64,000 nt of DNA from an uncultured Planctomycetaceae bacterium. GTDB lineage: Bacteria; Planctomycetota; Planctomycetia; Planctomycetales; Planctomycetaceae. The DNA lies in the NCBI GenBank assembly GCA_937916515.1, contig CALFSX010000016.1:1-64000 (forward strand). The letters run 5' to 3'. This document shows positions 5,047-9,083 of this stretch, piece after piece (within the stretch, counting starts at the first letter, position 1; the number at the start of each line of letters is the position of its first letter). The position numbers were made by a program, and so were the translations under genes. Under the pieces are notes generated by a model. The model did no database searches, had not been told where the DNA came from, and worked only from the letters and a program-made list of their open reading frames with translations.

Positions 5047-5943
5047 CTATAACGCGTTTCCTCGGACAGATCTGCCGGCAACGTGACGAAGGTAGTCGCC
5101 GTATTCGTTGCTGTAATTTTCGGCCAAACTTTCCAGTGCAGCTCGGTCAATGAACCCAAGCCGAAATGCGATTTCTTCCGGACAGGAGATCTTAAGGCCC
5201 ATTCTTTTTTCAATGGCCGCCACAAAATTACCTGCGTCCAGCAATGAATCATGGGTTCCAGTATCCAGCCACGCGAACCCTCGCGAAAGCGTCTCGACTT
5301 TCAGTTTACCACGTCGCATGTATTCGCGATTGACGTCTGTGATCTCAAGTTCGCCACGAGGAGACGGCTTTAAGTTGGCGGAAATCTCGACGACATCATT
5401 ATCGAAAAAGTACAGCCCCGGCACCGCAAAATTCGACTTCGGAACGACGGGTTTCTCTTCCAGAGAAATGGCTTTGCCCGCATCATCAAATTCAACGACG
5501 CCGTAGCGTTCCGGATCACGTACTTCATAACCAAAGATGGTCGCTCCAACATCCAAACGAGTCGCGTTTCCAAGGATCTCCTGAAACCCTCGCCCGTAGA
5601 AAATATTGTCGCCGAGGACAAGTGCGACGTGGTCGTCACCAACAAAATCAGCCCCCAAAATAAACGCCTGTGCCAGCCCTTCTGGCTTAGCCTGTTCAAG
5701 GTAAGAAAATTTCATTCCCCATTGTTCGCCGGTCCCCAGCAGCTTCTGAAAGCCACCAAGATCTCTAGGAGACGAAATTATCAGCACCTCCTGAATTCCG
5801 GCCAACATCAAAGTTGAAAGAGGGTAATAAATCATTGGCTTATCATAGACAGGAGCCATCTGCTTGCTGATGCCATGAGTAAGTGGAAACAGACGCGAAC
5901 CCGTTCCACCAGCCAGAATAATGCCTTTTTTAAAGCAGTTCAT
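5047..5943 (-). CDS. rmlA: Glucose-1-phosphate thymidylyltransferase
   Basis: Makes dTDP-glucose from dTTP and glucose-1-phosphate, the first step to dTDP-L-rhamnose; cytoplasmic. The 298 residues match RmlA. The nucleotide loop [16 protein letters not shown] is at 7-22, followed by [16 protein letters not shown], then VLGDNIFYG with the metal-binding Asp, EEKPVVPKS, and [17 protein letters not shown] near 225. It is the last gene of a minus-strand set with rmlB and the NRS/ER-like gene, with about 110 bases between genes, so co-transcription is likely but not proven. Confidence 0.93.
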
Positions 5944-6053
5944 GTCTCTATTTCTTTTCAGCCTGTGAAAGTCTATGCCCAGAAATCAACGGCGGAGTTA
6001 AGCCCGAACAATCCAACGCCACCAAACAAACTGTTAACGCAGAAGTGAAACTT

Positions 6054-7106
6054 TTACCCCCCAAGGCCAAGCCGTTCACGGCGATAGTCTCCGCTCTGAA
6101 TTCGTGCTACCCACTCATCATTATCCATGTACCACTGAACTGTTGACTCAATTCCGCTCACGAAGTCCTGACGCGGCACCCAACCTAATTCCGCTCGAAT
6201 CTTAGAAGCATCAATTGCATAGCGCCTGTCGTGCCCCGGTCGGTCTTTCACATACGTAATCAACGACTCACATGGAGCATGCGGCAGGCCCGGACGCAAC
6301 CGATCGATTGTCGAGCAGATTGTCTTAACAATATTGATATTCGCCTGCTCGTTGTTGCCTCCGACGTTATAACACTCACCGATCTTCCCACCAGCAAGTA
6401 CTGTTTCAATGGCTTCGCAGTGGTCTTCCACGTACAGCCAGTCACGCACATTCAGACCGTCCCCGTAGACAGGCAGCGGCTTTCCATCCAACGCATTCAG
6501 AATGATCAGCGGAATCAATTTTTCAGGAAACTGATAGGGACCGTAATTATTGCTGCAATTCGTCATTAAAGTTGGCAACCCATATGTATGCAGGTAGGCT
6601 CGCACAAAATGGTCTGACGCCGCTTTCGACGCTGAATAAGGGCTATTCGGGGCATATGGTGTGCTTTCGGTAAACAGTCCAGTGTCACCCAATGAACCGT
6701 AAACTTCGTCAGTTGACACATGCAGAAAGCGAAACGCTTCGCGCCGAGATTCGCTTAAGGACGAATAATATCGCCGCACTTCTTCCAGCAGTCGACAGGT
6801 GCCCACAACGTTGGTTTGAACGAACTCCATCGGCCCATCGATTGAGCGATCCACATGCGACTCAGCCGCAAAATTCACGATCGCGTCTGGTTCAAACTTC
6901 GTAAGCAGCGATCGAACAAGTTCCGAATCACCAATATCGCCTGCCTGCAGGTGGTGCAGATCGGAATCCGGCGGAATTGAATCCGGATTTCCAGCGTAAG
7001 TCAGCTTGTCCAGATTTACGATTCGCACGTCACCACGAGCAACCGCACGTCGAACAAAACAACCGCCAATAAATCCGGCCCCACCAGTGACAAGTAATGT
7101 TTGCAT
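6054..7106 (-). CDS. rmlB: dTDP-glucose 4,6-dehydratase
   Basis: Converts dTDP-glucose to dTDP-4-keto-6-deoxyglucose with bound NAD; an extended short-chain dehydrogenase. From ATG 7106 the protein has 350 residues, the normal length. It opens with the Rossmann motif GGAGFIGG (8-15), has the dehydratase triad motif STDEVYG, and the YSASKAASDH active-site Tyr/Lys. DRPGHDRRYAID near the C-terminus is the RmlB signature. A longer frame opening at 7193 adds about 29 residues before the Rossmann strand and was rejected. Middle gene of the rhamnose cluster. Confidence 0.95.
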   Translation of the reverse strand: MQTLLVTGGAGFIGGCFVRRAVARGDVRIVNLDKLTYAGNPDSIPPDSDLHHLQAGDIGDSELVRSLLTKFEPDAIVNFAAESHVDRSIDGPMEFVQTNVVGTCRLLEEVRRYYSSLSESRREAFRFLHVSTDEVYGSLGDTGLFTESTPYAPNSPYSASKAASDHFVRAYLHTYGLPTLMTNCSNNYGPYQFPEKLIPLIILNALDGKPLPVYGDGLNVRDWLYVEDHCEAIETVLAGGKIGECYNVGGNNEQANINIVKTICSTIDRLRPGLPHAPCESLITYVKDRPGHDRRYAIDASKIRAELGWVPRQDFVSGIESTVQWYMDNDEWVARIQSGDYRRERLGLGG

Positions 7107-7216
7107 GACTGAAAAACTTTTTTCGTTCAGAATTGTAATTCGTTTATCTGACACCGAACACGAAAAGACGATGGAGCGATAAATCAAAACCAAATGTCTT
7201 CAGAAACTGAAACCGC

Positions 7217-8098
7217 CTAAGACACAGAAGCAGCCGGAATCCAGTTTTTCATGGCTCGTTCCAGGGCTTCGCCAATCGGACTTAGCGGTAAACCCGCAGC
7301 GATCGCTTTACTGCTGTCCAGCACGCAATTTGATCGAGGCGTACTGGCTGCCAGTTGCATGAATTCGGCCTCAGTTTCAAAGAATGAAAATTGTTTTTTG
7401 CACAGACCAAACTTCCCGATCATTTCAACAACATCGCTCGTCGTGACATGCCCCGGATTCGTAAGATTGTAAATTCCGAAGTCAACTCGTTTGGTCCAAC
7501 AAGCAACACAGGACGCCACAAACTCATCAAGCTGAGACAGGCTGTTTGTGGCCTGCAGCAAACGATCGTAACGCATCATTTTGGTAATGTAGTTTCGAGG
7601 TGAATCGTGTTCATCGAACGGAATCCTCAACCGCCAGACATAGCACTGCTCGGCCCCAACAAGCATTTCTTCCCCCAGTGCTTTGCAGCCTGAGTAATAG
7701 CTGCAGTTATTCTGGCGAAACGAAAAATTGGGAGCATCCAGTTCCGTGAACCCGGCACCATCCGACGTGGTTCCCGTGTAAATGCATCCCGAAGAGACAT
7801 GCCCCCAAGGCAACTTCAAGTCTTCACAAACTTCGCGAATCACGCCAGGAAGCAGAGCATTTCCAGCAAGGCATTCGGGCTTACGCAATTCGCAGGCGTC
7901 AACATTTGGCCGTCCGGTAAATCCCGCAGCATTAATAACAAACGTCGCACCCACCTCTCGCAATTTGGCAGCCAGGGCGTTCTTGTCAAAATAGTCAACA
8001 TTTTCCCGAGAAACGACGTAAAAGGGTTGCTGATCACGGGACATCAACTTCTGAAATGCTGTTCCGACGTACCCACTGCCACCGATTATCGCAAACAT
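7217..8098 (-). CDS. NRS/ER-like dTDP-4-keto-rhamnose 3,5-epimerase/4-reductase (putative)
   Basis: Predicted to finish dTDP-L-rhamnose synthesis. The Rossmann start is IIGGSGYVGTAF (4-15). The body follows plant nucleotide-rhamnose synthase/epimerase-reductase (UER1 type) more closely than bacterial RmlD: NAAGFTGRPNVDACE, SSGCIYTG, DSPRNYITKMMRYDRL, QLDEF, GIYNLTNPGHVT and APRSN-like STPRSNCVLDSSK. YSGCK gives the catalytic Tyr-x3-Lys. The plant enzyme does both 3,5-epimerisation and 4-reduction, and no rmlC is present here, which fits. I chose ATG 8098 because AGGAACG precedes it; a frame opening at 8122 is possible. Family is seen in the sequence; bifunctionality is inferred. Confidence 0.8.
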   Translation of the reverse strand: MFAIIGGSGYVGTAFQKLMSRDQQPFYVVSRENVDYFDKNALAAKLREVGATFVINAAGFTGRPNVDACELRKPECLAGNALLPGVIREVCEDLKLPWGHVSSGCIYTGTTSDGAGFTELDAPNFSFRQNNCSYYSGCKALGEEMLVGAEQCYVWRLRIPFDEHDSPRNYITKMMRYDRLLQATNSLSQLDEFVASCVACWTKRVDFGIYNLTNPGHVTTSDVVEMIGKFGLCKKQFSFFETEAEFMQLAASTPRSNCVLDSSKAIAAGLPLSPIGEALERAMKNWIPAASVS

Positions 8099-8519: not shown

Positions 8520-9083
8520 ATGCCAATTTTAGGCCAAGAGCCGGACTTGTACCCCGAAGAATTGCTGACCTCTCCCGAGATAATCGTGCCGGACGGCAAT
8601 TGGTTTGCGTTCTACACACTTTCCCGACGTGAGAAAGAATTAATGCGCCGCCTGCGGGTACAGAAAATTGCCCACTATGGCCCGATGATTCCACATAGAA
8701 CTCGATCTCCACAGGGACGAATCCGGACAAGTTACGTTCCTCTGTTTTCCGGTTACGTGTTCGTTTGCGGGACGGAAGAAGACCGCTACAACACTGTCGC
8801 GACAGGATGTATTTCAAAATGCATCAATGTTACCGAACCCGAAATTCTTGTCCGAGACCTGCAAAAAATTCGGATGCTGGAGGAACACGGCGCGGACCTG
8901 AAGGCAGAAGTCCGCCCGGTTGTGGGGCAACGAGCTCGAATTGTGCGAGGTCCACTAAAGGAACGAGAACTGGTTGGCACAATCACTAAGGTGAACAGCC
9001 AGCACCGACTGACAATCGTCGTGAACTTCCTGCAACAGGGAGCCTCAATTATGGTGGACGAAGCGGACCTGGAACTTCTCTGA
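8520..9083 (+). CDS. NusG-like transcription antiterminator, RfaH/UpxY type
   Basis: A specialised NusG paralogue, of the kind that lets RNA polymerase read through long operons such as surface-polysaccharide clusters. The NGN domain starts near residue 27 (NWFAFYTLSRREKELMRRL) and includes the typical YVPLFSGYVFV stretch. A C-terminal KOW domain follows (GQRARIVRGPLKERELVG, then VVNFLQQGASIMVDEADLEL). A 25-residue N-terminal extension precedes the NGN domain. It is not the housekeeping NusG, because it is not beside secE or rplK and sits divergent to dTDP-rhamnose genes. Control of the adjacent polysaccharide genes is inferred from position only. Confidence 0.85.
   Translation: MPILGQEPDLYPEELLTSPEIIVPDGNWFAFYTLSRREKELMRRLRVQKIAHYGPMIPHRTRSPQGRIRTSYVPLFSGYVFVCGTEEDRYNTVATGCISKCINVTEPEILVRDLQKIRMLEEHGADLKAEVRPVVGQRARIVRGPLKERELVGTITKVNSQHRLTIVVNFLQQGASIMVDEADLELL

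Follow-up and report, generated by a model that had tools for sequence, protein, structure and literature searches.

A predicted NRS/ER-type epimerase-reductase beside RmlB and RmlA in a planctomycete genome, and its probable part in a shortened route to dTDP-L-rhamnose

The window considered here is a 64,000-nucleotide stretch, part of contig C16 (CALFSX010000016.1), in the genome of an uncultured Planctomycetaceae bacterium (8.33 Mb in 343 contigs, 99.3% complete) which, among named organisms, is closest to Fuerstiella and to further planctomycete metagenome-assembled genomes (MAGs). On its minus strand, from position 8098 down to 5047, three open reading frames (ORFs) follow one another in the order ER-RmlB-RmlA with a spacing of 110 bases in the ORF list (Table 1). 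Our main concern is the first of them, here called ER for epimerase-reductase, which starts with an ATG at 8098 preceded by AGGA. RmlB (481 bits, cut-off 365) and RmlA (458 bits, cut-off 361) both pass their NCBIfam equivalog models, and the best solved matches of RmlB are dTDP-glucose dehydratases. Neither RmlC nor RmlD lies beside the three genes at the locus, just as an earlier, sequence-only reading of this DNA had described the cluster. Enzymes of the dTDP type thus adjoin the ER, the arrangement by which we recognise a dTDP-L-rhamnose pathway cluster.

Table 1. Features of the rhamnose locus and its upstream neighbour, in window coordinates
Feature	Position	Strand	Basis
ER, NRS/ER-type 3,5-epimerase/4-reductase (predicted), 293 aa	7217..8098	-	profile, residues, tree, predicted fold
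ER residues: Cys105 and Lys173 (epimerisation), Tyr135/Lys139 (short-chain dehydrogenase/reductase, SDR)	within 7217..8098	-	alignment
RmlB, dTDP-glucose 4,6-dehydratase; genome's sole copy above cut-off	6054..7106	-	NCBIfam equivalog
RmlA, glucose-1-phosphate thymidylyltransferase; genome's sole copy above cut-off	5047..5943	-	NCBIfam equivalog
UpxY/RfaH-like NusG-family protein, neighbour upstream of ER on the opposite strand, possible member of the system	8520..9083	+	UpxY model, 70.8 bits, below cut-off 100

The ER reaches only 59.2 bits with the TIGR01214 rmlD model, for which the equivalog cut-off is 224.05. Among solved structures in the PDB (phmmer, E<=0.001) it matches two entries only, 4QQR, the Arabidopsis 3,5-epimerase/4-reductase (nucleotide-rhamnose synthase/epimerase-reductase, NRS/ER; UER1) at E 1e-34, and 7JID, the mimivirus UDP-L-rhamnose synthase L780 (UGER), at E 8e-19. 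A profile of the ER family, built with these two sequences themselves included, scores 4QQR at 342 bits, 7JID at 311 bits and the best RmlD at 73 bits. The AlphaFold2 model of the ER (predicted local distance difference test 95, predicted template modelling (TM) score 0.93) finds 7JID as its first fold match (TM 0.87) and then 4QQR (TM 0.81), with RmlD structures as the subsequent matches (TM 0.77-0.82). All the NRS/ER motifs quoted in the sequence-only reading are found in the translation, and GRPNVD, PRNxITK, TNPG and PRSN are common to the ER and the plant enzyme.

The catalytic residues agree with this assignment. Cys108 and Lys175 of L780, which according to a review (PMC9614988, available part) are central to catalysis and were confirmed by mutagenesis, correspond to chain positions 111 and 178 of 7JID by a constant shift of 3 and align with Cys105 and Lys173 of the ER. 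These two, together with Tyr135 and Lys139, are kept in all 160 relatives compared (80 from genome loci and 80 from viral loci, near-duplicates not removed) and also in the plant and mimivirus enzymes, whereas canonical RmlD has Tyr in place of the cysteine in 34 of 35 sequences and Thr in place of the lysine in 32 of 35. One might nevertheless consider the ER a divergent RmlD that acts as a 4-reductase only and depends on RmlC, considering that it carries an RmlD_sub_bind domain (65 bits), that the SDR Tyr/Lys pair is held in common, and that RmlD structures come next in its fold ranking. With a score that far below the rmlD cut-off, with a Cys/Lys pair that 34 of the 35 RmlD sequences are missing, and with no strong RmlC (as defined below) in 26 of 28 ER-carrying genomes of the window's family and in all 50 named ER genomes, we regard such an enzyme as very improbable.

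Two trees bear on the same point. In the careful one (39 rows, with RmlB as outgroup) the ERs of bacteria and viral contigs form a single group with the plant and mimivirus enzymes, support 98/97, and the RmlD rows form a separate group, 98/98, as they also do in a quick tree of 75 rows. On the other side, the approximately unbiased (AU) test does not reject a union of RmlD with the bacterial ERs or with the eukaryotic ERs (p 0.15 each). Because score, residues and tree all speak against it, the ER as a canonical RmlD was ruled out. As judged from its sequence and predicted fold, the gene is an NRS/ER-type epimerase-reductase by prediction, which is what the sequence-only reading had proposed, and the enzymatic idea in that reading is likely right for the family.

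Gene order in the relatives gives the ER a place in the cluster. The GTDB genome set, which covers bacteria and archaea only, holds 513 related loci; among the best 80 of these, 79 are titled planctomycete or verrucomicrobium and one 'uncultured bacterium', and the ER has RmlB beside it in 62, RmlA in 54, both in 50 and neither in 14. The ER-RmlB-RmlA order is followed by 47 of the 50 loci holding both genes, and such loci recur in Planctomycetota and Verrucomicrobiota. RmlC or RmlD stands near the ER in none of the 80, some of which end early at contig ends. The comparison set consisted of 30 loci picked by strong RmlC from the class of L092 (Verrucomicrobia bacterium IMCC26134). RmlA, RmlC and RmlD occur together in 20 of them, with RmlB too in 15 of those 20, and the ER in none; 29 of the underlying genomes have no ER match anywhere and one, G406, a weak one. 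Since ER loci are without RmlC and RmlD and strong-RmlC loci are without ER, the ER takes the position of RmlC plus RmlD within the gene cluster.

The same alternation is seen across whole genomes. For these counts a strong RmlC is a match at E<=1e-55, a limit chosen after the scores were seen, and an RmlD one at E<=1e-40. In the window's family 170 genomes were searched, of which 28 carry a clear ER (E<1e-60) and 142 do not. Strong RmlC occurs in 2 of the 28 and in 119 of the 142, RmlD in 2 of the 28 and in 118 of the 142, and by genus RmlD is found in one of seven ER genera against 44 of 51 others. Of the 28 with an ER, 26 also have RmlA (a hand count from the table), and RmlA or RmlB lies within flanks of <=1.5 kb at 20 of the 28 loci. 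Of the 20 single-contig genomes listed, both ER-positive ones are without RmlC and RmlD, and 17 of the 18 ER-less ones have both. In the class of L092 (384 genomes, 124 with an ER at E<=1e-25), where the comparison with ER-less genomes covers RmlC alone, strong RmlC occurs in 5 of 124 ER genomes against 57 of 260 without. None of 50 named ER genomes, most of which carry a Verrucomicrobiota title and some of which belong to the 384, has strong RmlC, and three have RmlD above cut-off. With 26 of the 28 family ER genomes free of strong RmlC and 26 of 28 free of RmlD, it is most likely that the ER replaces both genes in most of the relatives that carry it.

We propose that the ER, RmlB and RmlA very probably make dTDP-L-rhamnose by a shortened route, in which the ER stands in for RmlC plus RmlD in most relatives and would work in parallel to them in the window genome. 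RmlA would supply dTDP-glucose, and RmlB would convert it to dTDP-4-keto-6-deoxyglucose; we assign the dTDP form to the substrate because the adjoining RmlA and RmlB pass dTDP-type models and RmlB matches dTDP-glucose dehydratases. The ER, modelled on L780 and the plant NRS/ER, would then epimerise C3 and C5 with Cys105 and Lys173 as an acid-base pair and, in the same single active site, reduce C4 with NAD(P)H by means of Tyr135 and Lys139, yielding dTDP-L-rhamnose. L780 itself is described as accepting both UDP- and dTDP-4-keto-6-deoxyglucose (PMC9614988, available part).

Several observations weigh against a simple replacement, first of all in the window genome itself. A genome-wide search found one full-length RmlC on contig C62 (248 bits, cut-off 156; the genome's only RmlC-family match) and one full-length RmlD on contig C148 (305 bits, cut-off 224), and the congener G015 likewise has RmlC and RmlD alongside its ER; the window genome and G015 are the two exceptions in the family counts above. 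Neither gene is linked to RmlA/RmlB: the rmlC adjoins a response-regulator gene, and the rmlD stands at the end of a separate, polysaccharide-like cluster in which the ORFs suggest glycosyltransferases. Both regions look native because they are syntenic with G015 and have the base composition of the window (G+C 0.511 and 0.525, window 0.518, with G015 at 0.59-0.595), and contamination as their source is unlikely on the same grounds. The exclusion also weakens at looser limits. At E<=1e-20 an RmlC turns up in 7 of the 28 ER genomes of the window's family; for the class of L092 the figures are 34 of 124 genomes with ER against 103 of 260 without, so that the pattern depends on the strong RmlC class. 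Of the 50 named ER genomes, 17 have an RmlD-like match at E<=1e-30. Moreover, the ER genomes are phylogenetically clustered, by which Fisher p values overstate independence, and many of them are incomplete MAGs.

Part of the looser RmlC signal may belong to another pathway. Three weak-class RmlC genes of ER genomes were looked at (L254:5391-5957, L255:7555-8109 and L267:4380-5606); at 166-181 bits they pass the rmlC equivalog cut-off, and each has in its vicinity a gene that resembles CDP-glucose 4,6-dehydratase most but stays below the cut-off of that model (206-214 bits, cut-off 278). These three probably serve another deoxysugar.

With one full-length rmlC and rmlD elsewhere in the genome, the one-enzyme route is probably redundant here and not the sole route: here and in G015, the ER and RmlC plus RmlD would share one intermediate, supplied by a single RmlA and RmlB. 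The idea of one gene for two, as put forward from the sequence alone, fits most relatives but is not supported for the genome in which it was raised; the assumption that rmlC and rmlD are absent is mistaken there, and the refutation proposed with that reading applies in part. One could also suppose that the product of the ER is some other dTDP-6-deoxyhexose, such as 6-deoxy-L-talose or an epimer at a single carbon, and that rhamnose in the window genome comes from the separate RmlC and RmlD. The stereochemistry of the reductase is not readable from sequence, and two pathways would account for the window genome and G015 retaining the complete set of genes. Set against this, the residues and fold of the ER match enzymes that make L-rhamnose, and 26 of the 28 ER relatives have neither strong RmlC nor RmlD, yet 26 of 28 have RmlA. 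We consider another product unlikely, and dTDP-L-rhamnose by way of the ER remains our preferred reading.

The origin of the ER needs separate consideration, as it had been called plant-type. The plant and mimivirus enzymes are indeed its closest solved sequences, and from this one might suspect that a plant or an alga donated it recently. However, the ER is 34% identical to the plant enzyme and 26% to L780, as against 49-75% to the tabulated bacterial and viral-contig relatives (weaker ones exist), and in the careful tree the bacterial/phage ERs group together to the exclusion of the plant and mimivirus enzymes, support 90/64; the quick tree leaves the order of this pair, three viral-contig ERs and the remainder unsettled. 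With one plant and one mimivirus sequence as the eukaryotic/giant-virus side of the trees, and with no eukaryotic collection searched, a recent plant origin is disfavoured, and we hold it to be scarcely credible. The bacterial ERs look like a lineage of their own beside the eukaryotic enzymes, as far as two eukaryotic-type sequences can tell, and both Planctomycetota and Verrucomicrobiota commonly carry relatives. The label 'plant-type' is therefore misleading with respect to origin, and 'bacterial lineage of NRS/ER kind' is better.

An RmlA tree adds a further aspect. Eleven RmlA from ER-positive planctomycetes form one clade (support 99) apart from the sampled ER-negative planctomycetes, and two more from ER-positive planctomycetes (L088 and G130) stand beside it with support 90. 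As to a possible common origin of the whole ER-RmlB-RmlA cassette across phyla, ER status requires four changes on this tree, yet a single clade is not rejected by the AU test (p 0.22). The labels of the tree were imperfect: the planctomycete L088, which is placed in two groups of the quick ER tree, was put with the ER-positive Verrucomicrobiota; G130 (L283) formed no part of the groups; and L231 was counted among the ER-negative rows, whereas a weak ER match (9e-39) exists in its genome, G406. The clade fits RmlA travelling together with the ER.

The ER is also encoded on uncultivated viral contigs: the best 80 of 141 (L141-L220, near-duplicates not removed) have ERs of 35-52% identity. Within the available flanks RmlA accompanies it in 48, RmlB in 43 and both in 38, and RmlC or RmlD in none of the 80. 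The contig L190 has a clamp-loader and a deoxynucleoside monophosphate kinase-like gene nearby; on L150 and L169 none of the genes tested proved to be a phage hallmark. Isolated phages gave no ER, only RmlD-like matches of ~30% identity in nine records. Among these are ~150 kb phage records such as ESCO5, ZCKP1 and REC, whose RmlD-like gene shares ~30% identity with the ER along 60% of its length; the hosts named are Escherichia, Klebsiella and, in one case, Campylobacter.

How does this compare with known systems? Like the plant NRS/ER (UER1) and the C-terminal domain of RHM, the ER has a single SDR domain with a Cys/Lys epimerase pair and is predicted to be bifunctional. Unlike the plant enzyme, the bacterial ERs have a short insert in the FRQNN region, and they often lie beside dTDP-type RmlA and RmlB. 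L780, the best fold match, differs from the ER in an altered GRPNVD stretch. Canonical RmlC and RmlD hold the same position in the pathway after RmlB but need two genes, and bacterial L-rhamnose synthesis is described as requiring them separately (PMC9741107; PMC9614988, available parts). The haptophyte RmlC-RmlD fusion (PMC6556577, available part) likewise puts epimerisation and reduction on one polypeptide but does so with two domains, where the ER has one SDR domain only; among algae, the same source states, NRS/ER and RmlCD are mostly mutually exclusive.

The ER route is a variation on a pathway already known, and bacterial homologues were noted in 2011. Yin et al. 2011 (PMC3220709, available part) reported four bacterial homologues of the RHM C-terminal domain, all from Verrucomicrobia, and considered that the donor prokaryote may already have integrated both activities. 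These homologues, matched by description, probably belong to the same bacterial family as the ER; the available part of that paper describes for them no replacement of RmlC/RmlD and no planctomycete or phage homologue. Among the open-licence literature matches listed, judged by title and the start of the abstract, we found no report of a bacterial NRS/ER replacing RmlC/RmlD, which is not proof of its absence in print. With the ER, the prokaryotic source discussed by Yin et al. has a definite candidate. We would tentatively go one step further, to a scenario that we consider possible although not the more probable outcome: the dTDP-sugar ER beside RmlA/RmlB in Planctomycetota, Verrucomicrobiota and phages may represent the lineage from which both the UDP-rhamnose NRS/ER of eukaryotes and giant viruses and the C-terminal domain of RHM arose, that is, the 'integrated' prokaryotic gene they postulated, and the window genome and G015 may be snapshots before the loss of RmlC and RmlD. 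A practical consequence concerns genome surveys, one of which searched 12,939 genomes for RmlABCD (PMC7725333, available part): if the one-enzyme finish is true, callers based on RmlABCD could count many members of the Planctomycetota and Verrucomicrobiota as incapable of making rhamnose.

A few minor observations may be added. Many ER matches of verrucomicrobial genomes (e.g. G267, G305 and G513) are split in two, joining near query residues 110-121, which suggests an insert right after the catalytic cysteine in a sub-group. Two full-length ER copies apparently occur at separate places in G020, G125 and G233. A scan for promoters and terminators gave matches not above chance level. Antiterminators of the UpxY/RfaH kind frequently control polysaccharide operons, and the neighbour in the last row of Table 1 resembles this kind. 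At 658-1014 on the plus strand of the window lies an ORF whose C-terminal two thirds consist nearly entirely of aspartate/glutamate repeats.

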